NCBI GenBank assembly: GCA_031254115.1
Contig: JAIRUZ010000032.1
Coordinates: forward strand, 1 to 64,000
Length of the DNA stretch: 64,000 nucleotides
Direction: 5' to 3'
DNA from: Streptococcaceae bacterium
Lineage (GTDB): Bacteria; Bacillota; Bacilli; Lactobacillales; Streptococcaceae
In this document: positions 1-43,049 of the stretch, piece by piece
Layout of the letters: every line of letters begins with the position of its first letter
Numbering within the stretch: position 1 is the stretch's first letter
Notes under the pieces: model-generated
Database searches by the model: none
Seen by the model: only the letters and a program-made list of their open reading frames with translations
What the model was told of the DNA's origin: nothing
Position numbers and translations under genes: made by a program

Positions 1-108
1 CGCCTTGTGCGCCTTGTGCGCCTTGTGCGCCTTGTGCGCCTTGTGCGCCTTGTGCGCCTTGTGCGCCTTGTGCGCCTTGTGCGCCTTGTGCGCCTTGTGC
101 GCCTTGCG
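1..108 (-). repeat. 9-bp tandem repeat encoding Gly-Ala-Gln collagen-like triplets
   Basis: The unit CGCCTTGTG (plus strand) repeats 11 times without a mismatch from position 1 to 99. A twelfth, variant copy (CGCCTTGCG) ends at 108. On the coding strand this reads (Gly-Ala-Gln)n after a Gly-Pro-Gln. The array continues past the window edge, so its true copy number is unknown. The unit is a multiple of three, so copy-number change would alter protein length but not frame. Confidence 0.97.
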
Positions 109-3100
109 GACCAGTCGCTAATTCTTTAACGGTGACAACTTGTGTACTAGAAACTGTTTCTGGAAGACCCGTTACTGGATTTGTGTAGCTTAATGTATAG
201 ACAACACCATACGTGCCTACCGTTGTCGTATCTACGTTTGAGCTAACAGAAATCGTGCCTGGGAAGTGAGAAACTGAACCTGTCGATGTCGTTACCGTCG
301 GATAAGTAACTGAAGCTGGTGATGGCGCTGGAGTAAAGCTATCACCTACTGTCAGCACAACATTTGCTGGAGCCGCAATCGTTGGTGCTGTATAAGTTGC
401 TGACTCTGGTGTATCTACTGCTTGTGAACTAGCTGCATTAGTCGTGTAAACATATGTCACGTTGATTGGTGTCGTTTGTGCGCTACCATCTGAGAGCGTT
501 GTCAATTGGAAAGCTTGGTCAGACGTGAGACCCGCAACTTGCACTGCATTGCTTGGTGTCGTTGTCAATGTATAACCAGCAATTGTAAGAGGTGTCGTTG
601 TGTAACCAGCGTTTACATCAGCAACTGGGAGTGTCGTTTGAGGTGCAATTACTGCGCCATTTGCATCAACATAGTTGACGAGGACAGTTCCTGGAACAGG
701 AAGAACGACTGCTGGGTTCGAGATAATTGTTGGAATTGCAAGTGAAACGCTTGCCATGTTAGAAGCTGTCACCGAGCGAGCAAGTGGGCTTGCAGCAAGT
801 GCCGTCGAAGTTGTAGAAACTGGTGAGAAACTGTAATGTGCTTGCAATGTTACGTTTTGAAGGTTTGTACCGTCAAATGTCACAACTGAATTTGCATACA
901 AGTTACCAAGGCTATCAACTGATGATTGCACCGTAACAGGAGAGCCAACAAAAGCACCTGTATCTTTATTAACCAATTGAATCGTCAGGTTTTGTTTCGT
1001 GCCAGCATCAGCAACGTCATTTTCAACGTGTACTTCAACAATCGCTTTCTGGTTTGGTGATGCGTTGAAGCTGCCCCCACCGCTGTAGAAGTTCAGCAAT
1101 TGACCAACTCCCTGCGCCACGTGTACCACATTCGTTGACGTCACTGTGTTACCTGCGGCGTCTGTATACGTATAAACAGCGCTTTGGTCGCTTGGAGCTG
1201 TTGTTGGAACATTAGAGATTGTGACTGCGTTTGCATTACCGGCTGTGCCGTCAGTGTTGACAACAGATGTCACACCATTTGCGGCTGCAACTGTGCTACC
1301 TACCCAAACTGTTTGTGGTTTTGTTGTCAGTGACAACTGATTTTGTACTGGCGCTGCATTGACTGTAACAACGACGAAGTTAGATGCTCCTACTTTACCT
1401 GAAACAGGATCTTTATAGTAGTAAGCCACATTGTACTGACCAGCTGTTGTCGCCTTGCCGCTTGCATCAAGTGGAAGGGCGCTGTAATCAGCAACGAGGT
1501 TTGGATTGCCCCAAGTGACTGCATTGCCTTCTGAGTCTGTGCCTGAAACGTAGTTACCTGCTGGATTATACCATTGGCCTACTGTCATTACTGTGTTTTG
1601 AGCTGTCAGCACTGGAGAAGCAACATCATTTACTGTAACAACTGCAACATTGGAAGCAATCGGATTGCCCGCAGAGTCTTTAATTGTGTAGTAAACGTTG
1701 TATTGGTTAGGATTAAGTGAGCCTGATCCGCCAGAAGTCAACGCCGCTGCAGTCACATTACCGTTTGCATCAACTGGGATGAATTGGAACGCGCCTGTCG
1801 TGTTGTTGACCATGTTAGTATTTGGATTTGCTGCGTCAAAACCGACTGGTGTTACTTGATTAAGTGTGATTGTTGTGCCATCGCTGTTGACACCACCAAC
1901 AAAGCTGTTCTTGATAGCGTCAGCAAGAGCTTCGCCAACTTTCAGCGTTGAATTTGTAGCTGTCAGCGTGGCTGTATCAGGGGCTGCGACTACATTCACG
2001 AGAGCTACGTTTGATGAAATGCGGTTGCCGGCTGAATCAACAACATTGTATGACACTTGGTAAGAGCCAACTGTTGTTGCTTTTCCGTCAGCCGTCTGTG
2101 GAATAGCGCTGAAGCCAACTGGGTTGACTTGCGTCACTGTCAGCGCGTGGCCAAGTGTATTTTGTCCGCTGACAAAGTTTGCAGCTGGATCAATTGTGTC
2201 ACCTACTTGGATAGTGACGTCTTTAGCTACGAGATTAGCCGTATCTACGTTGTCAGCATACTGGTAAACAACCGTAGTGTTTTGAGTTGCTTGCGGTACA
2301 CCGTTGACAAGCGATGGCGTTACAGCAAATGTTTCAGGAACATACATACCATTTGCCTCAGCGCCTGTAACCGCTGGTTGGCCTGCGTAGTAGTAGTTCT
2401 CTTTGGCAAGGTTAGTTGCGATTTCAGTTGATGGATCTTGAGCCGTAAAGCCAACTGTTACAGAAGCGCGGCCTGTGTAAGTGAAGTTGATTGGGCTTGC
2501 TTGGATAAGCGTACCAACAGCTGAAGAAATGCCATTTGCAAGTCCTTTGACTGTATCAATCACGCCTGTTCCGACAGCACTTACAGTCTTGTTCCAGTTG
2601 CTAACAATACCGTAAACTGTATTCTGAACAAAACCAACTACACCATTCAAAACACCTGTTACAACGCCACCAATGATTGAGCTGTTAGAAAGCCAATCCA
2701 GATTTTGATAAGGCTTGAACAAGTCCACAAGTGAGCTTGGCAGCGTTACCATTTCTTGGAGCGTTACGACAAGTTTCGTTGTCAACGCATTGACTTTACG
2801 TGCAATATCGTTTGTCAGCGCTGTCGCGTTTCCGTGAGCGCCGCCATTGATGGTGTATTGACCGTTAGAACCTGTTGTAACAGGAGCTAGGAAGTTTTCA
2901 GTCCAAGCACCGCTGAACATGTTGCCTGCATCTGACAAGTTGTGTGCAATATCAGCTGCGATTTGGCCTGCTGCAGATGCATTTTTAGCGTATTCGCTAA
3001 CGATGTTTGTCAGCGTGTCAAGTGTTCCTTGGAGCATTTGTCCAAATTGATCCAAGCCGCTAATCAAGCTGCTTGTGAAGTTAGCGCCGCCAAGCCATTG

Positions 3101-4582
3101 ACCGATTGTCTGTCCCAAAATGTTAATAGAAAGAACTGAGCCAACCGCATCTGCAAGAATTGTACCTGTACCGTTCAAGAATGCGCTGAGAGACAAATTG
3201 CCGTCGCCAGTTCCCACATGTCTATCCGCAAGGAAACCGTGAATAACGCCTGCGACCATATCTGTGACCGAGCTGATATTAATCAGACCGCCAGTCACAG
3301 TGCTCACAGCGTCAGCAATGCCGTTAGCAATAAAGCTAACAACGTCACCATTGAGCAGGTTTGTTACGCCGTTCAACAAATCAGCAAAGGCATTGTTGAT
3401 TACTTTAACAACATCCGCAACAGCAGCATCAAGGTTACCCACGACGCTAGCAATTGCATTTTTCACAGCTGACGTTGCGCTTGGATTAAGCGTGTACTGG
3501 ATAGAAACGAGCGCATTGTTGCCAGGTGCAGTTCCTGTGATATAACCAGCCGTATTGCCGTCGCCAGCATTGAAGTTCGCTTGAAGCGTTGAAATAGCAG
3601 CAGCAACATTTGCCATTTCTGCCTGTGCGCTGATCATCGTTGCCAAATCAGCATAAGAATGCGTTTGGTTGTAAGCCGCTGATGCAGCTGATGCTGCGTT
3701 TGAGAGACCTGCAATCTGAACGCTGTAAGATGAAGCAGCTGAGATCATTGAGCTGTAAGCAGATGCTACCTCGCTCGTTGATGCAAAGCTAGAGCTTGTC
3801 AATGTTGGTGTGTTTTCATTCAAGACGATGAATGAGCCGCCTGCTGTTTGGGCTGCCGCTTCGCCTTGGTTGACAACAACATTTCCGCCGCCATCTTTAG
3901 CTGCTTGATACGTGACTGCAACACTTGCAATCGAAAGACCAGCCGTTGTCAAATCGCCAGGAGCTTGAACTGTCCATTGATAGCCATTGCCTGTTGTTTC
4001 AAGAAGCGTGCCTGTAAGTGAGTTAATCTGTTTAACGTCAAACGCTGCAGATGATGTAGCACCAGAACCCGCTTGAATAGCGCCATTGCTGTTGAGCAAT
4101 GTTGAGCTTGTCGTGCTGAGGTTCCATTGCGCTGCAGTTGATGAATCAACTGTGTTTGATACAGTTGCATTAACCGCGTAAGAGCCGTTCGTGTTTTCTG
4201 TATTGTTTGTCTCAGCTGTCCCGTTGCTGAGGGTCGTGCCGTCTTGCAAAAGTGCTTCTGACGTGAGGGACGTGTTGACAGAATCAGAAATAGCATTGTT
4301 TGAAGCTGCTACTGAGTTGGCATAAGATGCATTATCCGTACCTGCGGCTGCGTCTGATCCGAGGCTACCCGTTGCGGTATTGTTCGTTCCGACAACATTG
4401 GCGTCCCCTGCAGCTGCAGTTTGTTGTGACAAAATTTGACCATCAGCATTCGCTGTGACTGTTGAAAGTGCTGCGCCACCGGCAACAGCTGCTACTAACG
4501 CAGATGCGTAGAGCCAGCTTTTACCCGATTTCCATGAACGGAAATTGGCGTTTTTTGTCTGGTTTTCATTTTTGTTAACCAT
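1..4582 (-). CDS. Large secreted adhesin with KxYKxGKxW-type signal peptide and collagen-like repeats, C-terminus cut by window edge
   Basis: The reading frame is open from an ATG at 4582 to the window edge (at least 1527 codons). The ORF track misses it because no stop lies in the window. The start has a good ribosome site (AAAGGAGAG). The N-terminus carries RSWKSGKSW, the motif of long signal peptides on glycosylated serine-rich adhesins, then a hydrophobic Ala/Val segment and a likely cleavage site after TANA. About 700 Ala/Ser/Asn-rich residues follow, then Ig-like repeats with the pattern 'TV..G......N.V.G' (about residues 770-1130). A MucBP-like domain ([14 protein letters not shown], about 1300-1380) comes next, then a GPQ-(GAQ)n collagen-like tail. 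The wall anchor, if any, lies outside the window. Known for the family: export by SecA2/SecY2 and O-glycosylation. The two glycosyltransferases just upstream fit that. Adhesion is inferred. Confidence 0.85.
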
Positions 4583-4763: not shown

Positions 4764-4834
4764 AAAAAATCCGATTAGCCATGCTGCCGTTCGGAATTTT
4801 TTAATTTTCTATTTCTGTCAGCGCTGACAGAATT
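4764..4834 (-). terminator. Terminator region after the glycosyltransferase pair
   Basis: On the minus strand, an imperfect hairpin with AAATTCCGA and TCGGATTTTTT arms (4764-4802) has the form of an intrinsic terminator. Just upstream of it in the transcript is a second palindrome, CTGTCAGCGCTGACAG (4815-4830), a copy of the dispersed repeat described elsewhere. Together they probably end the transcript of the two glycosyltransferase genes. Confidence 0.6.
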
Positions 4835-6477
4835 TATTTTTGAGGCATTTGGTTGCCAAGACCTTCGGTCACGTCAGGCGTGTAGTGAATCGCTTTTTTC
4901 TTGGCGTCATCAAGCAATTGCCGCCACGCTTTCCAGACATTTTTCTCCGAATAACGCTCTGACAGCTCGTAAGACTTGTCAGACATCGCTTGCAGCTTGT
5001 CAGCGTCCTTGAAAAGTTCCACGAAATACGCCGCCATCTTCTCAATCAGCGGCTCAATCTCCGCCGTATTTTTTCCGTAAGGAATGATATAGCCATTTTC
5101 GCCGTCAACCGTCAGCTCGTTCGGCCCGTAATTCACGTCCCACGTCACGCCAACCATACCGTGCGAATACGCCTCCATCATCGACAAATTGAAACCTTCC
5201 ATAATAGAAGCAAGCGCATAAATCTGGTGATTGGCCTGAACGTCGCCTGGATTTGCCGTGTAATCATGCTGCTCAATCGCGTCTTTGAGGCCGTATTTTT
5301 CAATCGCTTCATTAATTTTCTTCATGGCAATATCATTGTCACGGTGATCCACATAACCGTAAATCGTCAAATTAATGTCAGGAATTTCTTTTTTCGCAAT
5401 CCCGACCGCCATTGCAATCTCGCCAATGCGTTTTTCAGGCGCGACACGCGCGGTAACGAGCACGCTGTGTTGCTTGCGCGCTGACATCGGCAAGCGCTCT
5501 TCTTCAAAAACAGCATTTGGAATGACGCCAACAGGAATGGTAAACATTTTTGTTTGAGGTGCAAATCGCGCCTTGACATCTTGTGTTTGCTTCTCTGTCG
5601 CAGAAACGATGGCATCATAACGATTGGCATTTGTCAGCCCATATTCATAGAAATTATTCATGACGGAATGCATCGTGTCTTGTGCATCGCCCGCGTGCGA
5701 ATTGTGCAAATGATAAACACTGTAAATCGGACGCTCCATCACGGTCACTGCCCAATCCGCAAGGTGCGAACGATCCAGTACAAAAACGCTCAGCTTCTTG
5801 TCATCCCAATAATCCGCGTTGATACGATTGAGGAAATGCAGCGTCAGCTCTTCTATGGTAGAAAACGTATAAACCGCTTGGTCTTCTATCAGCCGCCAGC
5901 CCGCTTTGTCATATTTTCCATTGTTGTAAAAGCGGTTGTACGTCTCAAGCACGGGCTTTCCGTCAATATCCCACCAAATTTCTGAGCCGATTTTGTTGTC
6001 TGGTGTGTAAAATTGCGACAGCGTCATAAAGCCACGAAAATCGTAATGATCCACGCGGTAAAGATTGCCAAAGCCATCAAACTTCTCGACCATTGACACG
6101 CGCTCATGTTCATCTTCCGTAAACCAGCGCACACGTGCCAAAAAGACATCGCGCTCGCCCACTTTTCGCAGCACTTGATACAATTTTTCTTGCTCATTTT
6201 TGCTGTAAATCACGTTGGGATAAGAAAAATCAAGGTCTACGACGCGCACGATTTTGTCTTCAACTTGCTCTGTTTTTTGGAAATAATCAAACATAGCAAG
6301 CGTTTCTGAGGGGCTCACGCCCACTTTATTCAGCCAAAAATGCAGGCGCGGATTCCACTCGCGAAAGACGAGCTTAAACGGCTCATTGTTGTCACGGAAA
6401 AGTTCTGCACGCTTAAGCTGTGCGTGCTCAATTCCTGAATTTTTTTCGTTAAACGACGAATTGATAAAAAAGTTCAT
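4834..6477 (-). CDS. Adhesin-type glycosyltransferase (GtfA/SdgB-like, GT4), second of a pair
   Basis: This is a GT-B fold enzyme expected to add sugar to serine-rich adhesins in the cytoplasm before export. The start MNFFINSSF...SGIEHAQLKRAELF is typical of the GtfA/SdgA/SdgB/TarM-like group. It is followed by a beta-rich middle (the family's acceptor-binding insertion) and a C-terminal GT4 half. The GT4 half has the EX7E motif EGFNLSMME at about residues 427-435. Length (547 aa) is slightly above the usual 500. It lies 9 nt after its paralogue, 250 bp upstream of the adhesin and on the same strand. That context supports the adhesin as substrate. The sugar is not predictable. Confidence 0.82.
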   Translation of the reverse strand: MNFFINSSFNEKNSGIEHAQLKRAELFRDNNEPFKLVFREWNPRLHFWLNKVGVSPSETLAMFDYFQKTEQVEDKIVRVVDLDFSYPNVIYSKNEQEKLYQVLRKVGERDVFLARVRWFTEDEHERVSMVEKFDGFGNLYRVDHYDFRGFMTLSQFYTPDNKIGSEIWWDIDGKPVLETYNRFYNNGKYDKAGWRLIEDQAVYTFSTIEELTLHFLNRINADYWDDKKLSVFVLDRSHLADWAVTVMERPIYSVYHLHNSHAGDAQDTMHSVMNNFYEYGLTNANRYDAIVSATEKQTQDVKARFAPQTKMFTIPVGVIPNAVFEEERLPMSARKQHSVLVTARVAPEKRIGEIAMAVGIAKKEIPDINLTIYGYVDHRDNDIAMKKINEAIEKYGLKDAIEQHDYTANPGDVQANHQIYALASIMEGFNLSMMEAYSHGMVGVTWDVNYGPNELTVDGENGYIIPYGKNTAEIEPLIEKMAAYFVELFKDADKLQAMSDKSYELSERYSEKNVWKAWRQLLDDAKKKAIHYTPDVTEGLGNQMPQK

Positions 6478-6486
6478 AGTGGCTCC

Positions 6487-7995
6487 TTAATCTACAAAGA
6501 GATTTCCTGCAAATGCGTGCGCGGCTTGCCATTTTTCCCACGCATTGTCCGCGTCAAATGTTTTCGCTTTCTCGTAAGCGCCTGTCGAATAATGCGCCAA
6601 ATCGTCTAAAATGGCAAGTGCGGCGTCGGCTGCTTTTTGAGACGCGCCCAATTGCACGAGAGCACCATTTACACCATTTTCAATTTGCTCACGCAAGCCA
6701 TATTTAACATCGTAAGCAACAACAGGAACGCCTGCCGAAAGTGCGTCAAGAACCGTCATACCGAACGCTTCGCCGACAGACGTTGAAAGCGCAAGCGCAG
6801 CACTCTCGAGCTCTGCCTTGTAAACGGCTGGATTGACATAGCCTGCAAATTCAATGAAATCACGCACCTTTTCTTTGGTCGCCAGTTCTTCGATTTTTTG
6901 TTGGCTGTCAGCTGGCGACGCATAGCCCAAGAATTTCAGGCGTGCATTCGGACGTTTTTGATGAATTTTTGCAAAAATCTTGATGACTTCGCTCGTATTT
7001 TTGTCATCCGCCATTCGTCCAAGATAAACAAGCTTGTCAGGCGTGCGTTTGTCAGCGCTGACAGGTTTGTCTACCTCAGAAAACGTATCAGGCACCACAA
7101 GCACATTTTTAAATTTGCTGCCGAGCGCATAAATATCTGCCTGTTGCGCCTCAGTCGGCACCAAAACGCCGTCAAAATGAACGGCCAGTGAATCAAAAAT
7201 AGGCTTCATGTAAGGCGCGACTTGCTTTGGCGCGCCATTTGCTGCATGCGTGGCGTGAAGAAATTGCCATTTGCCGCGAGCGCCTTGAACCATTGAAAAC
7301 GCGGGCGCAAGCGACGGGCGATCATTGATGAAAACAGCGTCTTCCCGAGCTGCAAGCTCGTTGAGAAAGAAAACAAACAGCTGATCCTCGCTGTCAAATT
7401 GCCAGCTTTTCCCTTTGTAATCCAAAACTTTATACATTGACGGCAATACTTGCCCGTTCACATTCATGCGCGCAATTTCAAGGCGCGGCTTACCTGTGCG
7501 GTCAAAGAAAAGCTGCGCGCCGGGCGTGCCATCTGGATGAAAATACTGCGTCGATGATTTGAACCCACGACGATCCCAAATATCTTTCGCTGAAATGCCC
7601 ATCAGATCATTGTAATAGTCAATACTGCCGACAATGCCAACCGTGGCAGGCGCAATCTGCACTTCGGCAATAACTTTGCCCGCATGCCTTACGACTGAAC
7701 GATTGGCATCGATACCCTCGATATGATAGGTATTTTTGTCAATCGCTTCGGCATAGCGCACATCAATGTCCGCCTCGGGCACCTCGACAGTTTCCTGAAA
7801 AAAGTCGTACATGTTCATCACATCTGTCTGCAGAAGCCCCACGCGTCCCGCGTCTCCTCTGAGTTGCGACGAATAATTGCGCGTGAGGATTTTTGCGGGA
7901 ATCCCGTGCGCCTTAAAAAGCTCAAGGCGTTTTAAGGCTGAGAACTCGGTCCCTGAATTGAGCGTGAAAATATTTTCGTTTAAAAAGTAATTCAT
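6487..7995 (-). CDS. Adhesin-type glycosyltransferase (GtfA/SdgA-like, GT4), first of a pair
   Basis: This 502-aa protein shares the N-terminal pattern (MNYFLNEN...NSGTEFSALKRLELF), middle insertion and C-terminal GT4 domain of its downstream neighbour, so the pair arose by duplication. The motif that is normally EX7E reads EAFGMTVLD here (about residues 409-417), with Asp in place of the second Glu. In known two-protein systems one partner can be mainly a chaperone or co-activator. Whether this one is catalytically weaker is inference. It contains one copy of the dispersed palindrome, read as VSADK. It is the first gene after its own promoter and has a GAAGGAAG ribosome site. Confidence 0.8.
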   Translation of the reverse strand: MNYFLNENIFTLNSGTEFSALKRLELFKAHGIPAKILTRNYSSQLRGDAGRVGLLQTDVMNMYDFFQETVEVPEADIDVRYAEAIDKNTYHIEGIDANRSVVRHAGKVIAEVQIAPATVGIVGSIDYYNDLMGISAKDIWDRRGFKSSTQYFHPDGTPGAQLFFDRTGKPRLEIARMNVNGQVLPSMYKVLDYKGKSWQFDSEDQLFVFFLNELAAREDAVFINDRPSLAPAFSMVQGARGKWQFLHATHAANGAPKQVAPYMKPIFDSLAVHFDGVLVPTEAQQADIYALGSKFKNVLVVPDTFSEVDKPVSADKRTPDKLVYLGRMADDKNTSEVIKIFAKIHQKRPNARLKFLGYASPADSQQKIEELATKEKVRDFIEFAGYVNPAVYKAELESAALALSTSVGEAFGMTVLDALSAGVPVVAYDVKYGLREQIENGVNGALVQLGASQKAADAALAILDDLAHYSTGAYEKAKTFDADNAWEKWQAAHAFAGNLFVD

Positions 7996-11376: not shown

Positions 11377-13362
11377 TCATTTTCTTTTCTTGTTTTTCTT
11401 TATTGCGTCCAGCGTTATCGCGCCAAATGGAACCGCAAAGCCAGAATTTTTGGAACGTTCATTTTCTCTGCTTTCACTCAAAACGCCAAGTGACACGGCA
11501 TCTGAAATCGCGCTATTTTCGCTTTCAGAAGTAACAACAGACCAAGCTTTCATTTTCTGCTGGCTTTCGCGCGCCTGATGCTCAGACTCCTGAGCAGAAT
11601 GCGTGGCTTCGCTCATGCTGGCGTATAAGCTCAATGCGCCTGAGTTTCTAAGGCTTTCAGACTCGCTCAAACTCTCAGAAGAACGATTGTTTTCAGCCAT
11701 TCGCTCAAGCAACGACTCACTCGTACTCACAAATTCTGAACGCCTGCTTGATACCATCAAACTCTCATAGACGTAGTCGCTAAACGAATGACTGGCCGAG
11801 TAAAACCGGTAGACACTTTCAGAAATGCTGTCACTGTAGTATTTTCTTTCTGAACTTTTCGCGCTGACGACTTCTGCGAACGCCTGTTGAGCGTGCGAAA
11901 CAATTGGCGCCCGCTCACTTTCATTCACTAAATCAGCTTGCCACACATTCTCAGAATGCACATTTTCGTGGGCAATCGGCTCCGCTTCAAGCGTTTGCCG
12001 CGCGTGTCTTGCTGGAGATGCCTTTGAATCGGTTATACCAAACAAGAAACCAACACTTTCACGCATGAGCACGCCCACTTTTTCAGTTACAACGCCCCGA
12101 GAAAGAGAATAAATCACGAGCAAAATCAAGCTGAAAAAAGGATAAATAATACTTCTCCCACCAGAAGCAACAACCGTTGGTGAAAATCCAATAATCGTGC
12201 CTAATACAATTCCCGTACCGCCAATGAACACAGGTATAATAGACTTTGTTAAAAGTATTACTCCTAAAATCAAACACACAAAAAGACTCATTGCCAAGAG
12301 ATTTTGATTCGATTGCAACAGCTGCCTTTCAACACTCTGTAAATTCGAGCCCGTCGCATTAAGAAGAGGCCCTTGTGCTCCCCCAAAAATGACCCTATAA
12401 ACAGGATAAGCTAACAAGAGACACGCCCAAAGTTTGCCCCTAGCAATCGACAGTACAAACAAAATAACCACGCACAGTGTCGGAATCAGATAACCCGCTT
12501 GCCAAACAGAATACGACAGAAATGAAAACCCTTGCTGAATCTTATCGCCCGTCTGCAAATCAGCAAAACCAGGATACCACGATTTGATTTCTGACTGCAT
12601 CCGAAACGCTTGACCTGGGTTCAATAAGATAAACAACATAGAGCCAACAGAAATAACGCTGTAAGCGATAATCGGAATGATCCATCCGTGACGACGCGTA
12701 AACAAAATAATGCCAAATAAAAAAGCCGATAAGAAAACCGAGACAACCGACAATTGCTCCGAATTTGAGCCAATGTTTAAGAGAGGAATCCCTAAAACGA
12801 AAGAGCCAATAGAAACAGCGCGCGGCGTTGCCAGATTTTGCGCCCCGCGCACGAGCGGGAGCCATGCAAGCATAAACGTGCCAAGCGGCACAATATAATT
12901 AACGGTCGCATTCAAAACGCCACTTGACAAATAAAAACCCATTGGAAAAAGTAAAATTAAGCTGGTCGTAGCAAGCATCAAGACGCTTTGCGGCAATCGT
13001 GTCTTGAACCAATAAGCAGGAGCAATCGCCGCGGCAGAAAACGACAGCGTCATCAACCACTTCCAAAGCAAAATCTGATGCGGCATAAAAAACATTAACC
13101 CTTCAGCAACAAAACGCGCACTCCAATGCGTCAAACGATAACTGACATAATTGAGCACATTACCGTCAAACATCTTCTGAGTTTCATTGAACCAGATATC
13201 GTCATTGTACAAAGGGGATGTTTTAAAAGAACTGACATAAAGCCAAAAAATCCAGATAATCACCAGGGCTGTGACAATCTGACTTGCAACTTTTAACTTT
13301 CCTCTATTTCTCCCCAATAAATTCATTATTGGTACTTTATTTCTAACATATAAACCGCTCAT
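11377..13362 (-). CDS. Polytopic membrane protein (DUF6056/GT-C-like) with a Ser/Glu-rich C-terminal tail
   Basis: The ORF track start (13566) would overlap the flippase by 208 nt. ATG 13362 overlaps the flippase stop as ATGA and gives 661 aa. About 450 residues form roughly eleven hydrophobic helices, like the DUF6056 family and GT-C sugar transferases or polymerases in surface-glycan clusters. The last 200 residues change to soluble sequence rich in Ser and Glu (SESLSESESL, SMSEATHSAQESE). That composition resembles serine-rich adhesin repeats. The cluster lacks an obvious polymerase, so this protein is a candidate. That is inference. The Ser-rich tail could be modified by the adhesin glycosyltransferases. 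Confidence 0.65.
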   Translation of the reverse strand: MSGLYVRNKVPIMNLLGRNRGKLKVASQIVTALVIIWIFWLYVSSFKTSPLYNDDIWFNETQKMFDGNVLNYVSYRLTHWSARFVAEGLMFFMPHQILLWKWLMTLSFSAAAIAPAYWFKTRLPQSVLMLATTSLILLFPMGFYLSSGVLNATVNYIVPLGTFMLAWLPLVRGAQNLATPRAVSIGSFVLGIPLLNIGSNSEQLSVVSVFLSAFLFGIILFTRRHGWIIPIIAYSVISVGSMLFILLNPGQAFRMQSEIKSWYPGFADLQTGDKIQQGFSFLSYSVWQAGYLIPTLCVVILFVLSIARGKLWACLLLAYPVYRVIFGGAQGPLLNATGSNLQSVERQLLQSNQNLLAMSLFVCLILGVILLTKSIIPVFIGGTGIVLGTIIGFSPTVVASGGRSIIYPFFSLILLVIYSLSRGVVTEKVGVLMRESVGFLFGITDSKASPARHARQTLEAEPIAHENVHSENVWQADLVNESERAPIVSHAQQAFAEVVSAKSSERKYYSDSISESVYRFYSASHSFSDYVYESLMVSSRRSEFVSTSESLLERMAENNRSSESLSESESLRNSGALSLYASMSEATHSAQESEHQARESQQKMKAWSVVTSESENSAISDAVSLGVLSESRENERSKNSGFAVPFGAITLDAIKKNKKRK

Positions 13363-14801
13363 CTCCTCTTTAAATGTCCCATATACTCCCCGATAAAGGG
13401 CCGCATGACTTGTATAAAAGGTGCTCTTAGCACAAAAATCAAACCAACATACACAGCACAGCCCACAATCGCCTGAAAAAGATAGTCGACAAGGCTCGGG
13501 CTTATCGTGGTATTTAGATAAAGCAACACACTGACTGTACAAGCGCCCGCGAGCACATATTTCCAAAAACCAGCCAGCAGCTGACGCAGATGAAATGCCT
13601 TACGAACAAAAAAAAGTTGAGAAAGCGTGACAGAAAGCTCCGTCGCTATCAGCGCAATCACAGCGCCCAACGCATCAAAGCTCGAAATAAATATAAAATT
13701 AAGCGGAATACTGACAAATAATCCCAAAAATACAGAGAATGCAAATTCTTTATTTTTCTTCGTCGCAAGTAAAAACTGCGAGCCTATAACGCTTGATATA
13801 GAAATGATAACGATATTGACAGGGAAAATAAGAAGCAATTTTCCCGCTTCTTGAAACGACGACCCAAAAAAGAAGACAGCAAATGTACTTGAAACTCCAA
13901 TAATTCCCGACGCTAAGAGAATTGAAAATGCCAGATTGACTTGCATTATTTTTTGGGTCAATGCCTCGATTTTCGCGTGTTCTTGCTCGGAAAACAGATT
14001 TGCCAAATGCGGCAAAAGGGCACTATTGAGACCGCCAATCAGCCCCAAAGTTGTACTGACAATCACATAACTTTGATAAAAATAACCCGTTTGTGTGACG
14101 CCTGACAAAGCCCCCAATATGGTTTTATTCGTCGTCACATAGACTGAAATCGCAACTTGCGGCAAAAATAAGACAGCTGTCAGCTTAAAATGCTGCCAAA
14201 TATTAGAAAATTTAGGCCATACCGCTGGGACAAGTTCGCGCCGTAACAAGGGCCAAATACTCAAACTTCCTAAAAGAGGCGCACCTGCCAGAAGAAAAAT
14301 ATACTTCACCAAATCACCTGGCTGCTTCACGAAAATAAAAATACAAACAAGCATCAAAATTTGGATGGCCGTATTTCTCAAAACGATAATTTTATATTTT
14401 TCAAGCCCCATGAAAAACCACGAAACATCAAAAAACACATTGACGATACTTAAACCCTGAACGAGGTAAAAAATCTGCCATTTTCTTTGAAGCGACACCA
14501 TGATAAGAAATAAGGTGCCCGAAATAAAAAACATAATGGCCTTTAGAACGAGCAATTCATAAAAAATTTTACTGCGCTCTTCTTTATTATTTTGATGATA
14601 CGCGATTTCTCTATTTCCGTATAAATTAATGCCTAAACCACATAACAAAACAAAATAAGTGTTGACTGAAGAAACAATCGCATTGATGCCGATATTGTCA
14701 GCTCCTAAAACTCTTGAAATATAAGGGGCTGTTATCAACGGCAAAATAACCAATAAAACTTGGTAAAATGAGTTATAGGCCATATTCTTGAGCAACTTCA
14801 T
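13359..14801 (-). CDS. Polysaccharide flippase (Wzx/MOP family)
   Basis: This 480-aa protein has about 12-14 hydrophobic segments and the opening MKLLKNMAYNSFYQVLLVILPLITAPYISRVLG, typical of oligosaccharide flippases of the MOP superfamily. It would move lipid-linked glycan units across the membrane. It has its own extended -10 box TGGTATAAT, 8 nt before the ATG, with no ribosome site. The last two cluster genes can therefore be transcribed separately. Its stop overlaps the next gene (ATGA). Confidence 0.9.
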   Translation of the reverse strand: MKLLKNMAYNSFYQVLLVILPLITAPYISRVLGADNIGINAIVSSVNTYFVLLCGLGINLYGNREIAYHQNNKEERSKIFYELLVLKAIMFFISGTLFLIMVSLQRKWQIFYLVQGLSIVNVFFDVSWFFMGLEKYKIIVLRNTAIQILMLVCIFIFVKQPGDLVKYIFLLAGAPLLGSLSIWPLLRRELVPAVWPKFSNIWQHFKLTAVLFLPQVAISVYVTTNKTILGALSGVTQTGYFYQSYVIVSTTLGLIGGLNSALLPHLANLFSEQEHAKIEALTQKIMQVNLAFSILLASGIIGVSSTFAVFFFGSSFQEAGKLLLIFPVNIVIISISSVIGSQFLLATKKNKEFAFSVFLGLFVSIPLNFIFISSFDALGAVIALIATELSVTLSQLFFVRKAFHLRQLLAGFWKYVLAGACTVSVLLYLNTTISPSLVDYLFQAIVGCAVYVGLIFVLRAPFIQVMRPFIGEYMGHLKRR

Positions 14802-14842: not shown

Positions 14843-15883
14843 TCAAAGAAGTTCCAAAGCAGCCGAAAGATAAGCACCCTGAGATAGCTTTGAAGCAACG
14901 CGCCAAACATTTCTTTGCATCATCTCATAGTCTTCTTTTGTCAGCGCTTGGATTTTCTCATCAAGCTCTCCCAAATGGTTAATGGAAAATCCAATCCCTT
15001 CACGCTCAACAAAGTCGTCAAGTGCCGCTTCTCTCCAAATGATAATTGGAAAACCTGCGACAAGGTATAAAGAAGCTTTGTGCGGACTGTTATAGCGCTG
15101 ATAATGCCCATTTTCTCCGTGCCCACCTTCTGCCGTTTCAGAGTCCCAAATCAAGCCAAACGAGCCTGAAATTTTCTCAGGAATTTCATCTGGAGAAAAA
15201 CTCCCCATGTAATGTAACTGCGTGCCCGCTGACTTTTCCGCGTTAAAATTTGGCCCATACAGCTTGTAGTTGATTGCCTGATTTTCAGGCAATGTTTCTA
15301 AAAATCCGACTTTTTCAGGTGAAAGATTTCCCGCCACAATCACTTCATTCCCAAAATGGCCCCCTAGCCGAGGCGTTGAAAAAAGATAATCAAAAATCTC
15401 TAAAACGCTGATTTTCTGGGAATCAAAGCCTTTCTCAACCAACCAAGTTTTCATTTTGCTCGTATGAGCAATCACAGCATCTGCCAGAAACAGAGCTTTT
15501 AAGCTATGAAAGTAAGGCACACACCCCTTTTTTCCCAGCGCTCGCTCGCCGCCACGTAACTCTTCAATATCATGAATTAAAAAAATGACGTTTAAATTTT
15601 TCTTCTCTTTCTGCTTAAAAAGCTTCTCATAGATAAAAGCTTCACCAAAATGTTCAGCCGGAAAATTGAGAATAAAATCACTATTTTTGATAAACGGGAG
15701 CTTGAACAGGGCAAAAAAGATGTAACAGAGCTCAACAACTCGAAGATTTTTTATTTTTGGCGGAACAAGATTGATTTTTTTGTAGCCATTTTTCTCAAAA
15801 ATGCGATTTGCGTCCTCTTTTGCCTTGCTTCCCGCGTGATGATTTGTTTGATAAACAAATCCAAAATACCGTTTAATCCTCAT
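14843..15883 (-). CDS. Gtf3/galactofuranosyl-type glycosyltransferase
   Basis: The 346-aa protein opens MRIKRYFGFVYQTNHHAGSK and has HDIEELRG at about residue 105. It shows the fold signature of the Gtf3/beta-1,6-galactofuranosyltransferase group (GT-B, acting on glycan or glycoprotein acceptors). The donor-site region includes IWDSE and RYNSPHKASLYLVAGFPII. It overlaps the preceding GT4 gene by 11 nt. Gtf3 enzymes can extend GlcNAc on adhesins, but the neighbours here point to a surface-polysaccharide role. Confidence 0.75.
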   Translation of the reverse strand: MRIKRYFGFVYQTNHHAGSKAKEDANRIFEKNGYKKINLVPPKIKNLRVVELCYIFFALFKLPFIKNSDFILNFPAEHFGEAFIYEKLFKQKEKKNLNVIFLIHDIEELRGGERALGKKGCVPYFHSLKALFLADAVIAHTSKMKTWLVEKGFDSQKISVLEIFDYLFSTPRLGGHFGNEVIVAGNLSPEKVGFLETLPENQAINYKLYGPNFNAEKSAGTQLHYMGSFSPDEIPEKISGSFGLIWDSETAEGGHGENGHYQRYNSPHKASLYLVAGFPIIIWREAALDDFVEREGIGFSINHLGELDEKIQALTKEDYEMMQRNVWRVASKLSQGAYLSAALELL

Positions 15884-16973
15884 TTAAAAGCCTGTCCCAT
15901 TCTTGAATAATCTGGTGCATCTCAAAGTCTTTAACCCGTTGTAATGATTTCTGCTGGTAAAGCGCGCGCATTTTTGAATCTTCGATTAGTTTTTTTAGTT
16001 GGCAAAAAAGTGCATGGACATCTCCATTTGGTGCAAGCAATCCATAATCACCGTTTTCAAGAACCTCAGAGCTTCCGCTCTGCTCAAACGCAACGATTGG
16101 AAGACCAAAACTCATGGCTTCAATGAGTACCAGTGGAAGACCTTCCCACCTTGATGTCATGAGATAAATCGAACTTTCTCCGTAATGTTTTTTCAACGCT
16201 TCTCCCGTCAAGCTTCCACGGTAACTGATTTTATCCTCCACTTTAAATCTACGCACCCATTTACGAAAGAGGGGCAAATTACCTTTTCCAGCGACAGAAA
16301 TTCGCCACCCCTCAGGAAGTAAGGAAGCAATCTCAGCAAGATAATCAAGTCCTTTGTGAGGATTATCCAGTCGTCCCGTCCAGGAAATAACAGGTGCAAC
16401 CAGATCGGAGACCTTATCGGCCTTTATCGTTATTGGATTATGGAGGACAGAGATGTTGGCATTAAATCGGGAAAAGGCCGTCATATCTTGCGAAGTCAAG
16501 CAAATGACTTTATCTGCCTGACACAATCCGTCTGTCAAAAATTCTGTTGTGTACCTAAAATAACCGCCAAGATAACGCGTTGCACTGTTGTGGCACCAAG
16601 CAATGAGCTTTGTTTTCCCACGATTTTTTATAAATGGAATCAGCAAAATAGCAGGCCCACTAAAAATAACGGTATCGTACGTCGTTTTTGAAATTTTTTG
16701 TTCTACAAATTTGCTTTGCCGCTGAATAAAAAAACGAACCATGGCTTTAAGCTTCAGCAAACCGCTAAGACCCGCCAGTCGTAAAAACCACTGATATTGC
16801 GCAGTTGATTTACCTTCAAGATTTACAGAAGAATGAAAAAGACTTTTGTCAGGCGTGGAGAGTGTCACTAGATCGACTGCATAATTTTTTGAAAGTGCTT
16901 CAGCAACTGCTACATTTACCTTTTCAGTCCCGCCCAAATTCCAAGTCGGGACAACAAATAAGAGTTTTTTCAT
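15873..16973 (-). CDS. GT4 family glycosyltransferase
   Basis: Soluble or peripheral 366-aa glycosyltransferase with N-terminal PTWNLGGTEKV (a typical GT4 'GG' loop), SWTGRLDNPHKGLDYL (about residue 195) and EGLPLVLIE at about residues 274-282 as the EX7E motif. It uses a nucleotide-sugar donor to extend the repeat unit on its lipid carrier. Start and upstream stop overlap as ATGA with the Stealth gene. Donor and acceptor are unknown. Confidence 0.85.
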   Translation of the reverse strand: MKKLLFVVPTWNLGGTEKVNVAVAEALSKNYAVDLVTLSTPDKSLFHSSVNLEGKSTAQYQWFLRLAGLSGLLKLKAMVRFFIQRQSKFVEQKISKTTYDTVIFSGPAILLIPFIKNRGKTKLIAWCHNSATRYLGGYFRYTTEFLTDGLCQADKVICLTSQDMTAFSRFNANISVLHNPITIKADKVSDLVAPVISWTGRLDNPHKGLDYLAEIASLLPEGWRISVAGKGNLPLFRKWVRRFKVEDKISYRGSLTGEALKKHYGESSIYLMTSRWEGLPLVLIEAMSFGLPIVAFEQSGSSEVLENGDYGLLAPNGDVHALFCQLKKLIEDSKMRALYQQKSLQRVKDFEMHQIIQEWDRLLNED

Positions 16974-17986
16974 TTTTCAAACTCACTTTTTTGAGGAAAT
17001 TTTTCCTGCAATGCGTGATTGAGTCTTTCTTTTTCACCCTTAAAATCAGGGAGCGTTTGACTGGAACCATCGTTGATACAAAGTATTTTCAAGCGTGAAG
17101 CAAACAACTTTGTATAATTGGTTTTTGGAGCCATTTGAATTAATTGACCAAATTTAAAGGAATTATGAGGAACAAATTGACCCGTCGCACGCATATAATC
17201 CAGTACAAACCAGATATTGGGTAAGTCAAGGTCGCGAAACCGACTTTCTGAAATCGCCTCAAAATACTGCGGCGCTAACTCTCTTAATTCTCTCACAATC
17301 TTTTTTGTAAAAGGTTGCGCAAGATGATCAGGACGATAGCCTAAAAATTTCTTCATGTATAAAAAAATAGGCACCATTAAGAGATTGGCTGCAACTACAA
17401 ACAGTCCATTTCTGAGGGAATAATTTTTGAGTTGAAACAGCTTTTTTTTATCCGTTGGAAGTTCGTTGAGTGCTAGAATATTGTTAAACAAAATAACATT
17501 GAAGGCCTCGCTCGGCAAAATAGGCGTTGCCATACTCTGTAGAACGGGGAGATCTTGCTTAAAAAAATCATCGGGAGAAACGGGTGCATTTAAGAAAAGG
17601 TCATCATTGAAATTCACAAATCTCTCGGATAAATCGGGGATTTTGTCCATATTTATCTCAAGTGCGTTGCTGTTGAATGTTGGCAGGTAGTTTTGAGCCA
17701 TGTAATCTGTATGTTTGACAATCTGCAGCTTGGGATGAGCGGTATTAAGCCAGCTCGGGAGGTGCCCATAAGTTACAACATGAATCTTGTTGACCCACGG
17801 CGCGTAACGCTCGACTGCTCTGAACCAATACTCAAAATTATCCATATTGCGAAAGCGAGCTTCATCATTGCCTAATAAATCATCACTTTCATGGCTGTAT
17901 TTAGCTTTTTCTTTAAGCCAGTCAGGGTCTGTCCCATCAAGATAGGTAACGACAAAATCTATTTTTTCATCCTTATTTTTCTTCAT
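16970..17986 (-). CDS. Stealth-family sugar-phosphate transferase
   Basis: Stealth proteins transfer sugar-1-phosphate units to build phosphodiester-linked glycans and are related to the human GNPTAB core. Conserved region 1 is KIDFVVTYLDGTDPDW. Region 2 covers ARFRNMDNFEYWFRAVERYAPWVNKIHVVT. FVNFNDDLFLNAPVSPDDF is the DDD-type active-site stretch, and a later NSFKFGQL block follows. The track start is a TTG at 17998. The ATG at 17986 (338 aa) has a GGAG site 6 nt upstream and is preferred. It implies phosphodiester bonds in this glycan. Confidence 0.87.
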   Translation of the reverse strand: MKKNKDEKIDFVVTYLDGTDPDWLKEKAKYSHESDDLLGNDEARFRNMDNFEYWFRAVERYAPWVNKIHVVTYGHLPSWLNTAHPKLQIVKHTDYMAQNYLPTFNSNALEINMDKIPDLSERFVNFNDDLFLNAPVSPDDFFKQDLPVLQSMATPILPSEAFNVILFNNILALNELPTDKKKLFQLKNYSLRNGLFVVAANLLMVPIFLYMKKFLGYRPDHLAQPFTKKIVRELRELAPQYFEAISESRFRDLDLPNIWFVLDYMRATGQFVPHNSFKFGQLIQMAPKTNYTKLFASRLKILCINDGSSQTLPDFKGEKERLNHALQEKFPQKSEFEK

Positions 17987-19130
17987 TTTTTGCTCCAAAT
18001 ATATCTTTTAGAATAACCTTTGCGACAGATTCTGTTGAATATTTTTCGCTTACTTTCTTCTGGAGATTTATTCCCAAACTTTCTCTAAGCGCTTGATTTT
18101 TAAGAGCTTCCTGAAGTTTTTCTTTCAATTCCAAAACGTTCCCTTTTTCAACCAAAAGCCCGTCTTTTCCACTCTCAATAATCTCCTCAATACCCGGAAC
18201 CGCTGTTGCAATAACGCAACAACCAGCCGCGCCCGCCTCGAGCACAACGCTGTTCAGCCCTTCAGGGTAATCAATTGTCGGAACTACGACAATATCGATC
18301 CTCTGATAACGCGCTTGTATCTCGTGTTGTTTCAATCTTCCAATGAAATGAATGTTAGCCGATTGGTAGATTTTGGACAGTTCTCCGAAATCTGAACCTG
18401 TCCCAATGATTTGTAAATCTGTCTTTTGTTTCAACGGTTCTGACAGCATGTTAAAAGCCTGCAATAAAAGTTCAACGCCCTTTGGCTTTATCACGCGACC
18501 AACATAGGCGATTTTTAACGTGTCGTTTGAGAGCTGTCGCGTTGCGTTTTGTGCTAGCGTGACATTATTGTGCCAAATACCTGAAACAGACAACTTTAAA
18601 TCTTTTTCAAGATGCCTTTGGGCTGCTTTTGAAACTACATAAAAGTTGACTGGGTAGCGTTTGATTTTTTGGGTAAAACAATTTTCAACAGCATGCAACG
18701 GAAGATCGAGAATAGGGTGCGAAAGAGTCAAAGGAGCTGAGCCGTGCTCAACTACAAAAACTTGTCGATTCAACTTTTTTCCCATTTTTACACCGAGAAG
18801 GGTGGTTGGGTAAAAGCGGGCATTACAAATAAGCGCATCGATTTTTTCATTGTGAAGCTGATTGACGAGAGAGCGATAGAGCTTGTTTTTCTTAAAGACA
18901 GGATAACGGTTGCTAATTTTCTCGTAAACGGGAAGATAATAGTGAATGATTCCGAGCTCATCTCTCTCTTTTCCAGGGCTGTGGTCTACCGCGCTCGAAA
19001 CACAGATGACTTGGATGCCGTCTTTGGTTAATTCCCGCGCTAATCGGTCGGTGTAACCCTCAACGCCTCCAACATGCGGAAGAGAATAGCCTGAAAAGAA
19101 AGTAAGTGTTTTTTTATATGAGTCGCTCAT
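17973..19130 (-). CDS. GT4 family glycosyltransferase
   Basis: This 385-aa GT-B enzyme has the N-terminal loop SLPHVGGVEGYTDRL, the mid-domain YVGRVIKPKGVELLLQAF (about residue 230) and EGLNSVVLE (EX7E, about residues 290-298). It is related to PelF/GtfC-like and mannosyl/glucosyl-transferases. It overlaps both neighbours and sits inside the operon. Probably adds one sugar of the repeat unit at the cytoplasmic face. Specificity not predictable. Confidence 0.85.
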   Translation of the reverse strand: MSDSYKKTLTFFSGYSLPHVGGVEGYTDRLARELTKDGIQVICVSSAVDHSPGKERDELGIIHYYLPVYEKISNRYPVFKKNKLYRSLVNQLHNEKIDALICNARFYPTTLLGVKMGKKLNRQVFVVEHGSAPLTLSHPILDLPLHAVENCFTQKIKRYPVNFYVVSKAAQRHLEKDLKLSVSGIWHNNVTLAQNATRQLSNDTLKIAYVGRVIKPKGVELLLQAFNMLSEPLKQKTDLQIIGTGSDFGELSKIYQSANIHFIGRLKQHEIQARYQRIDIVVVPTIDYPEGLNSVVLEAGAAGCCVIATAVPGIEEIIESGKDGLLVEKGNVLELKEKLQEALKNQALRESLGINLQKKVSEKYSTESVAKVILKDIFGAKNEEK

Positions 19131-20058
19131 GGTTTAAATAATTTGCCATCCCATTTTCTATCGTTTGACGCGGCTGAAAGTTTAATGCTTTGAGCTCAGA
19201 AATATCACTTAAAGAGTCCTTGATATCTCCTGAGCGAGCAGCTTTAAATTTTACACTTGCTTTTCTGTGTGAAATTTCTTCTGCTACATGAACCAAGTCA
19301 TTTAGCGTTGTTGCAATGCCTGTTCCGACATTGTAAACTTGGCCGCGAGAGGTTTCTGATACGGCAAGTAATAAAAGAGCAGCAACAACATCATCGACAT
19401 ACACAAAATCGCGTGACTGATTGCCATCGCCATAAATGGTTAGCTCCTGATTGCTTTTTAACTTATCCACCAAAATCGAAATGAAACCCGAATAGGGAGA
19501 TGCTGGATTCTGAGCGGGGCCATAGACATTAAAAAAGCGCGCCATTGTTGTGGGTATTTTGTAAAGCTCATTATAAATGGCACACATGCGCTCGGACGCA
19601 AATTTGTCAACGGCATACGGAGACAACGGCTTGATAGAGGAAGTTTCTTTTTTCGGAAATTCGGGGGCGTTGCCGTAAACTGCAGCGCTTGATGAAAAGA
19701 TAAAACGTTTGAGCGGCTTTTGGCTTTGGCGAATTATTTCGAGGAGTTGAAGGGTGCTGTCATAATTGACGGCGTGAGTCTCAACGGGGCGGGCAATGGA
19801 ATCTGCCACCGAGGCAATGGCTGCGAGATGAAAAATATAGTCAAACGCATGCTCATGAACGAGTTGCCAGAGGAGAGAGTGGTTGGTGACAGAGCCTTCA
19901 ATTTTTGTTAAATTGGGGGAGTCAATCAAATTGTCCCAAGTTCCCATGGACAAATCGTCAAGAACAACGACCTGATTGTCTGAAAGGAGTGCGTTGGCAA
20001 GTGTCGAGCCAATGAAACCCGCGCCTCCTGTGATAAGAATCGTACTATTTTTTATCAT
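19114..20058 (-). CDS. NAD-dependent nucleotide-sugar epimerase/dehydratase (UDP-glucose 4-epimerase type)
   Basis: Extended SDR enzyme, 314 aa. The Rossmann motif ITGGAGFIGSTLANAL is at residues 9-24, the catalytic triad includes Ser in FSSSAAVYG and YAVDK (YxxxK), and VYGPAQNP is typical of the GalE/WbpP group. It would supply UDP-Gal, UDP-GalNAc or a related sugar for the cluster. It has an AGGAGAAG ribosome site. The exact substrate cannot be read from sequence alone. Confidence 0.85.
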   Translation of the reverse strand: MIKNSTILITGGAGFIGSTLANALLSDNQVVVLDDLSMGTWDNLIDSPNLTKIEGSVTNHSLLWQLVHEHAFDYIFHLAAIASVADSIARPVETHAVNYDSTLQLLEIIRQSQKPLKRFIFSSSAAVYGNAPEFPKKETSSIKPLSPYAVDKFASERMCAIYNELYKIPTTMARFFNVYGPAQNPASPYSGFISILVDKLKSNQELTIYGDGNQSRDFVYVDDVVAALLLLAVSETSRGQVYNVGTGIATTLNDLVHVAEEISHRKASVKFKAARSGDIKDSLSDISELKALNFQPRQTIENGMANYLNHERLI

Positions 20059-20401
20059 CGGACTTCTCCTGATTTTTTTGCTTGAGGAGAGAGACTTCTT
20101 GCGTCAAGATAAAAATTTGTTTTTCTGCTTTTATAAGGGTGAGCTGAAAGCGAAAGCTGATGAGTAGCAAGATGAGCACCAAAAGGAAAATGACAAAATA
20201 GGCGTAAGAGGTTAAACCAACAAAATGAGCCACATAAGTTCCAACATTTGAGAAAATGGCGCCTAGAAGCATGATAATTGATAAAAATAACCATTTTCTG
20301 ACTTGTCCAAATTCCGCTTTTTCTTTTCTGACGTAAGAAAAAACATAATAGAGAAAAACAAGGGCTATAAAAATTGCGACAATTCTAAGTTGTAGAGTCA
20401 T
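20045..20401 (-). CDS. DUF2304 membrane protein
   Basis: Small 118-aa membrane protein with three hydrophobic segments and a charged coiled-coil-like C-terminus (KAEKQIFILTQEVSLLKQ). DUF2304 proteins regularly sit next to GT2 dolichol-phosphate-mannose-synthase-like enzymes, as here (2 nt gap). Known context: they accompany polyprenyl-phosphate sugar formation. The molecular role is not established. Confidence 0.8.
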   Translation of the reverse strand: MTLQLRIVAIFIALVFLYYVFSYVRKEKAEFGQVRKWLFLSIIMLLGAIFSNVGTYVAHFVGLTSYAYFVIFLLVLILLLISFRFQLTLIKAEKQIFILTQEVSLLKQKNQEKSDDKK

Positions 20402-20403
20402 TT

Positions 20404-21123
20404 TTAGTCTCCTTTTTGAAATAATGCGACGTAGATGACGGCTGCGCTGACGCTAAACATGTACGCGATGCCTTTAAGCGGACTGATGCTCGATTTCCCT
20501 GTTGTGCGCTCAAACATTGTAACGCCGACTTCTTTGATGCGAAAGCCTTTTTTATTGAGATAGACATAGGTTTCTGCTTCGAGACGAAGGTTGGAATAGC
20601 CTTTCACGAGACGCTCAAAAACGTCTCTTTTTGCCGCGGTGTAGCCGCTTGTAATGTCTTTGATTTCGATTTTCGAAATAGCTTTGACAAGCGTTGTGAG
20701 AAGTTTCATGCCCACCTGACGCGCGGCGCTGGATTTAAAAGCAGACGGACTGTCGCTTGTATAGCGGGAGCCGACGGTGTAATCTGCTTTATTTGTAAGG
20801 AGCGGCTCAATAAGAGCGGGAAGTGAGTGAATATCGTGCTGACCGTCGCCGTCATATTGAACGGCAATGTCAAAATTATTTTCAAGCGCATAGCGGTAAC
20901 CCGTCAAAAGCGCACCTGTCAACCCTAAATTTTGGACTAATTCGATGTGTTGAATCTCATTTTCTTGCAAGATCTGCTCTTCTTTGTCAGTCGAGCCGTC
21001 ATTGATGACAATATAATCAAGCGCGTAATGACTTGTGGCAATATATGTTTTAACCGTTTGTACAACAGAGGCAATTCCCTCGGATTCATTATATGCTGGG
21101 ATAATTAACAGGATTTTACACAT
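20404..21123 (-). CDS. GT2 polyprenyl-phosphate sugar transferase (dolichol-phosphate mannosyltransferase-like)
   Basis: The enzyme probably loads a hexose onto undecaprenyl phosphate. It has IIPAYNESEGI at the N-terminus, VINDGSTDKEE, the DxD-like YDGDGQHD (metal and nucleotide binding) and KDITSGYTAAKR. One hydrophobic segment ends the protein. The track start (21174) adds 17 unlikely residues. ATG 21123 (239 aa) follows GAAAGGGG and matches the family start. First gene of the glycan operon. Confidence 0.87.
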   Translation of the reverse strand: MCKILLIIPAYNESEGIASVVQTVKTYIATSHYALDYIVINDGSTDKEEQILQENEIQHIELVQNLGLTGALLTGYRYALENNFDIAVQYDGDGQHDIHSLPALIEPLLTNKADYTVGSRYTSDSPSAFKSSAARQVGMKLLTTLVKAISKIEIKDITSGYTAAKRDVFERLVKGYSNLRLEAETYVYLNKKGFRIKEVGVTMFERTTGKSSISPLKGIAYMFSVSAAVIYVALFQKGD

Positions 21124-21162
21124 AACTGTGGCAAAGGCCCCTTTCGTAAGTCTTTGTCTTAG

Positions 21163-21171
21163 ATTATAACA
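21163..21171 (-). promoter_or_regulatory. Promoter of the surface-glycan operon
   Basis: The minus strand has TGTTATAAT, an extended -10 box with TATAAT at 21163-21168, giving a leader of about 33 nt before ATG 21123. The -35 region overlaps the preceding terminator and is not consensus. Confidence 0.55.
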
Positions 21172-21172
21172 C

Positions 21173-21195
21173 AAAAACCTGCGTGTGCAGGTTTT
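21173..21195 (-). terminator. Intrinsic terminator after the liaX/liaY-like genes
   Basis: On the minus strand AAAACCTGC and GCAGGTTTTT form a tight stem with a short loop and a T-run. It ends the liaX/liaY-like transcript just before the glycan operon promoter. Confidence 0.8.
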
Positions 21196-42943: not shown

Positions 42944-42965
42944 TTCGATTTCCTTTAGAATTGTT

Positions 42966-43038
42966 TTGTTTACAAGCGCGCTATGCATTCACACGCAGGT
43001 ATTTTTGGGTTCCGGGGCCACAAAAATGGGGTAAACAA
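42966..43038 (-). promoter_or_regulatory. Structured rplM leader (L13-leader-like)
   Basis: On the minus strand TTGTTTAC (43038-43031) pairs with GTAAACAA (42973-42966), closing a 73-nt domain with inner complementary parts, just before the rplM ribosome site. Position and architecture match the autoregulatory L13 leader known in Firmicutes. Not confirmed with a covariance model. Confidence 0.65.
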
Positions 43039-43049
43039 TACCGTTTATC

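Follow-up and report, generated by a model that had tools for sequence, protein, structure and literature searches.

The gene at 11377–13362 (minus strand) of the window, by which we mean the whole 64,000-nucleotide stretch of Streptococcaceae contig JAIRUZ010000032.1 analysed here, lies within a glycan gene cluster and encodes a DUF6056-like membrane protein with a serine-rich repeat (SRR) tail. Its ATG at 13362 overlaps the stop codon of the upstream flippase gene as ATGA, which gives firm ground for this start and for a length of 661 residues. The frame is open throughout, with no internal stop, which rules out a frameshift or sequencing artefact. The relevant features, all on the minus strand, are the following.

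11377–13362, minus: DUF6056-like protein with twelve predicted membrane helices and a C-terminal SRR tail, 661 residues, stop codon within the coordinates
12100–13362, minus: predicted N-in membrane core, residues 1–421, twelve helices (alignment, AlphaFold, positive-inside counts, insertion scores)
11380–12066, minus: tail, predicted cytosolic, residues 433–661, with an alternating-serine register (composition, serine lags, insertion scores)
11443–11865, minus: densest SRR stretch, residues 500–640, 41 Ser in 141 (even/odd lags 104/42, z 7.0)
11380–11415, minus: lysine/arginine-rich end of the tail, residues 650–661 (sequence)
13359–14801, minus: Polysacc_synt flippase, upstream of the tail gene and translationally coupled to it
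14843–15883, minus: galactofuranosyltransferase-like protein, below the family cut-off
15873–16973, minus: GT4 glycosyltransferase
16970–17998, minus: Stealth (CR2) protein, probable sugar-phosphate transferase
17973–19130, minus: GT4 glycosyltransferase
19114–20058, minus: NAD-dependent sugar epimerase/dehydratase
20045–20401, minus: DUF2304 small membrane protein
20404–21174, minus: GT2, probable polyprenyl-phosphate glycosyltransferase
2–4582, minus: surface protein with a KxYKxGKxW signal and with Big_3, MucBP and collagen-like parts (GAQ repeats), truncated by the contig end
4834–6477, minus: SdgA/SdgB/GtfA-like GT4 protein O-glycosyltransferase, first member of a tandem pair and candidate modifier of the tail
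6487–7995, minus: second member of the tandem glycosyltransferase pair

Farther along, the window also contains an LXG-domain protein at 39933–41273 (26.0 bits against a Pfam cut-off of 26.5), possibly a secreted type VII effector, and a ribosomal protein L13 leader RNA at 42963–43042 (RF00555, 50.5 bits).

Searched alone, the protein finds no match in NCBIfam or, with the limit relaxed to E ≤ 1, in Pfam, and the DUF6056 label holds only through its relatives, of which one (locus L005) scores 82 bits against PF19528 and another (L003) 27.8 bits against a cut-off of 27. A Streptococcus homologue is matched with an E-value of 7e-29. Homologues occur in 40 other genomes of the same family, mostly with 22–30% identity over the matched part, and further ones in two genomes from another family of the order. 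Across 21 aligned sequences, residues D54, F58, R76, W80, R83, E87, N155, Y156, E202, G250, R254, S400, and R403 are invariant; D54 is so in all three alignments (21, 24 and 27 sequences). Because this homology and the shared invariant residues come without a Pfam score of its own, we call the protein DUF6056-like rather than a scored member of the family. A literature search found nothing on DUF6056.

AlphaFold places twelve membrane helices in both the full-length and the core model (core mean pLDDT 84, pTM 0.86), the former with an additional long helix of low confidence at 503–622. In the 24-sequence alignment, with the N-terminus placed inside, lysine plus arginine per 10 residues comes to about 1.7–4.4 in the inner loops versus 0–1.1 in the outer loops. 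The contrast also holds in the 21-sequence alignment, except for the very short C-termini and the fifth inner loop, where these residues are no more frequent than in the outer loops. By our own simplified membrane-insertion score, the twelve helices range from −4.8 to +1.7; a possible thirteenth at 429–447, with an arginine and a glutamate in its middle, scores +4.5, which speaks against an extracellular tail reached through that segment. Three partly independent prediction methods (AlphaFold, the positive-inside rule, and hydropathy) lend good support to an N-in/C-in protein with its tail on the cytosolic side. The initial annotation had set an unmodified tail on the cytoplasmic side against its own reading; AlphaFold, charge, and hydropathy now predict that side, and modification, considered below, is plausible.

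In the N-in orientation the outer face holds the conserved D54, W80, R83, E87, N155, Y156, E202, G250, R254, S400, and R403, which are probably catalytic. The first-ranked Foldseek match is the STT3 chain of oligosaccharyltransferase, a GT-C enzyme (probability 0.98 for the full model and 0.96 for the core); its E-values, 0.05 and 0.14 respectively, are both non-significant, and TM-scores are 0.3–0.4. An acidic residue in the first outer loop, a feature of GT-C enzymes, is present as D54, and the core likely has a GT-C fold. The neighbouring GT2 (20404–21174) and DUF2304 genes make transfer of a sugar from polyprenyl phosphate by this core plausible; at locus L006 a DUF2304 gene likewise lies near the DUF6056 gene.

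This topology bears on the role first proposed for the tail, in which it would lie outside the cytoplasm, glycosylated, and carry or accept the exported glycan. SRR domains are found outside the cell as a rule, and the extra hydrophobic segment at the C-terminus of Lachnospiraceae homologues implies that the end of the protein can face the other side. However, the twelve helices, the positive-inside counts, and the non-inserting segment 429–447 all place the tail inside, and streptococcal homologues stop directly after helix 12, with no signal or anchor following. Because the tail is predicted to face the cytosol, with the conserved residues on the outside, we consider such a role unlikely.

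The tail itself (229 residues, including 47 Ser, 27 Glu, and 6 Thr) contains the repeated SES and SxSE patterns reported earlier from the sequence, with SES occurring 7 times versus 1.1 expected (z 5.9) and S.SE 6 times versus 1.1 (z 5.0); none of 2000 shuffles was as high for either. Pairs of serines number 107 at even lags (2–14) and 46 at odd lags (1–13; z 6.9, 0 of 3000 shuffles). The pattern is a degenerate alternating-serine register, not a tandem array of a fixed unit. Published work describes SRR domains as alternating serines to which GtfA/GtfB add a priming GlcNAc (PMC6973325), and in sequence terms the register of the tail is that of adhesin SRR domains. The only other comparably serine-rich stretch in the window is in the secreted protein at 2–4582, and it lacks the register. 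The combination that the initial annotation described, a polytopic DUF6056-like protein of a glycan cluster with an adhesin-like tail, is thus borne out, and this architecture of membrane enzyme plus SRR tail is real and unusual.

The same register is present on other, apparently non-exported proteins of the genus. These include giant serine-rich proteins without a recognisable signal peptide or LPXTG anchor:

L042 (G000:C17:8719-13158), same genome: 1479 residues, same register (even/odd 1822/205, z 52), without an obvious signal peptide or LPXTG motif
L068:6034-9837, congener G003: 1267-residue frame from the ATG region, 1276 with upstream codons
L073:5100-10553, congener G004: 1817 residues
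L075:4899-6495, congener G002: truncated at the contig edge, with about 530 residues visible

The giant proteins share a YGAN-like N-terminal motif, and an arginine-rich C-terminus is common to the three complete ones. In G000, G002, and G004 the giant gene comes after a gene for an AI-2E-family transporter; in G003 it is sited elsewhere, and in G001 no giant gene lies behind that transporter. A radC-like gene, judged by eye, stands behind the giant gene in G000 and G003. The N-terminus of the G004 giant found no match among 398 genomes of the order, a search that missed the known G000 counterpart as well. G004 also encodes a 407-residue protein (L119:14089-15312, contig G004:C101) with two predicted membrane helices followed by a serine-rich tail that keeps this register (124/47, z 7.3) and whose side of the membrane was judged by eye; nothing homologous to the N-terminal part of this protein turned up in the other four genomes. 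The search for further serine-rich proteins of the genome was by similarity only. As a separate observation, G003 encodes SRR surface proteins with LPXTG-type anchors at L070:4589-8905, where a KxYKxGKxW signal was scored, and at L072:3-917, near a SecA-like gene.

The search for tailed relatives that the initial annotation had suggested found a serine-rich tail in none of the 58 homologue C-termini read (sets of 33 and 27, with two genes common to both). These homologues, 16–28% identical to the window protein, end cleanly after the last helix. Among the genomes read, only one carries the tail, and because the four congeners (G001–G004) have no homologue of the gene, it cannot be traced within the genus. 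Separately, a streptococcal protein predicted to have a single membrane helix is encoded within a few kb of the DUF6056 gene (L076:12811-13311, L077:13041-13532) and includes a very serine-rich segment, where 26 and 22 of 60 residues, respectively, are Ser.

Restriction of the tail to a single species among the homologues read, together with the lack of congeneric homologues to show conservation, would fit a recent neutral acquisition, in which a fusion or read-through into SRR-coding DNA left a functionless extension. Against this, the frame has stayed open over 229 codons with its register kept, GC3 in the tail resembles that in the core, and the serine codons (AGC/TCT/AGT) differ from the TCA-led usage of the giant SRR gene in the same genome, which rules out a recent copy from that gene. 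We regard neutral acquisition as quite unlikely.

Enzymes that could modify such a tail are encoded nearby. The glycosyltransferase pair at 4834–7995, 3–8 kb from the tail gene, is related to SdgA/SdgB and GtfA at scores below curated cut-offs; its first member reaches 204 bits against the NCBIfam SdgA model, under the cut-off of 800, and has PDB relatives 7ec1/7ec7 and Gtf1 (5e9t/4pqg). Homologous pairs are found in two of the four congeners, twice in G002 and once in G004, where the pair lies about 7 kb from the gene for the 407-residue tailed protein. A second pair in the window's genome, on contig G000:C29 (L122:3464-9679), scores 433 bits for GtfA (cut-off 575) and 265 bits for GtfB (cut-off 338). 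The C29 genes form an accessory-Sec-like cluster (Asp2-like, weak Asp1-like, GtfA, GtfB), with pheS/pheT-like genes downstream. Similar GtfA/GtfB-like genes occupy the same place at congener loci L120, L121, and L123, with scoring done in L122 only.

Because the genome encodes two GtfA/GtfB-type O-glycosyltransferase pairs, glycosylation of the tail is plausible. Priming of SRR domains by GtfA/GtfB occurs before export, and O-GlcNAc added by a pair of this type has been reported on Lactobacillus plantarum proteins including FtsY, FtsK1, and FtsZ (PMC5796085). This precedent does not transfer to FtsY and FtsK here, because FtsY in four genomes of the genus and FtsK in two of five were read without a serine-rich domain (the G002 FtsY was covered without its start); we therefore rejected them as further cytosolic targets. 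Counted against glycosylation of the tail is the secreted KxYKxGKxW protein at 2–4582, which lies directly downstream of the pair at 4834–7995 and is likely its usual or main substrate.

The chief rival to a glycosylated tail is a cytosolic disordered scaffold, unmodified or phosphorylated by a Ser/Thr kinase, that recruits the cytosolic glycosyltransferases of the cluster and resembles an SRR domain through convergent compositional bias. The cytosolic placement predicted by AlphaFold, charge counts, and insertion scores would suit it, as would the low-confidence helix at 503–622, and the 27 glutamates among the serines fit acidic phospho-motifs. However, the two-residue serine register fits SRR domains better than general disorder. 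Streptococcal PASTA kinases favour threonine, whereas the tail has 47 serines to 6 threonines, which argues against the phosphorylated version. We consider the scaffold possible but somewhat unlikely.

The best supported reading, to which we give about an even chance, is that GtfA/GtfB glycosylate the tail, a cytosolic SRR domain attached to a wall-glycan enzyme of GT-C type, and that the tail serves as a bristle, anchor, or regulator. This reading draws on the SRR register, the predicted topology of twelve helices with both termini inside, the tailless homologues, and the presence of both glycosyltransferase pairs. Under this reading the core would be a GT-C-type glycosyltransferase of the surface-polysaccharide cluster, moving a sugar from a polyprenyl-phosphate donor, which the GT2 at 20404–21174 would make, onto the polysaccharide at the outer membrane face. 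GtfA/GtfB-type O-GlcNAc transferases modify SRR domains in the cytosol, the predicted side of the tail, which could thus be a substrate of either the pair at 4834–7995 or the accessory-Sec pair. Once O-glycosylated, the tail would form a bristle at the inner face of the membrane that may space, anchor, or regulate the enzyme.

A broader and frankly speculative idea, which we rate as improbable, is that SRR domains lead a second, intracellular life in this genus, in which GtfA/GtfB-glycosylated tails and giant signal-less proteins form an O-GlcNAc layer at the inner face that couples wall-glycan synthesis to UDP-GlcNAc supply. SRR domains and GtfA/GtfB have so far been studied as export and adhesion systems, and our literature search found nothing on cytosolic SRR tails. 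An SRR domain facing the cytosol on a glycan enzyme, in a genus that also has signal-less SRR proteins, would open intracellular protein O-GlcNAc in streptococcal relatives to direct tests and could tie surface polysaccharide to the supply of sugar nucleotides. Even with an unmodified tail, the architecture of the enzyme would be unusual.

Among known systems, the closest to the core are the relatives in Streptococcus gallinaceus and S. gallolyticus (DUF6056 and unscored), which share the same core at 24–27% identity and the same invariant outer-face residues. They are also sited in a polysaccharide gene neighbourhood, where an ABC-type polysaccharide exporter and glycosyltransferases lie upstream (translations judged by eye and unscored). 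However, they end 12–13 residues past the last helix, and none of those read has a serine-rich tail. STT3 and AftA-type GT-C enzymes, the first-ranked folds, likewise have an acidic motif in the first outer loop and an N-in orientation, but they show no sequence similarity to the core, and the Foldseek E-values are non-significant.

The tail shares its alternating-serine register with the SRR proteins Fap1, GspB, SraP, and L. reuteri SRRP, and cytosolic GtfA/GtfB are encoded in this genome. Unlike those adhesins, the window protein has no binding region, and no KxYKxGKxW-type signal or LPXTG anchor was matched in NCBIfam or Pfam at the thresholds used; it ends in IKKNKKRK. Its SRR domain instead forms the end of a polytopic enzyme and, with the C-terminus predicted inside, would not be exported to the surface. 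The targets of L. plantarum Gtf1/Gtf2 (FtsY, FtsK1, FtsZ, and DnaK; PMC5796085) differ from those proposed here, where FtsY and FtsK lack a serine-rich region as far as read, but they are likewise non-exported proteins modified by a GtfA/GtfB-like pair, as we propose for the tail.
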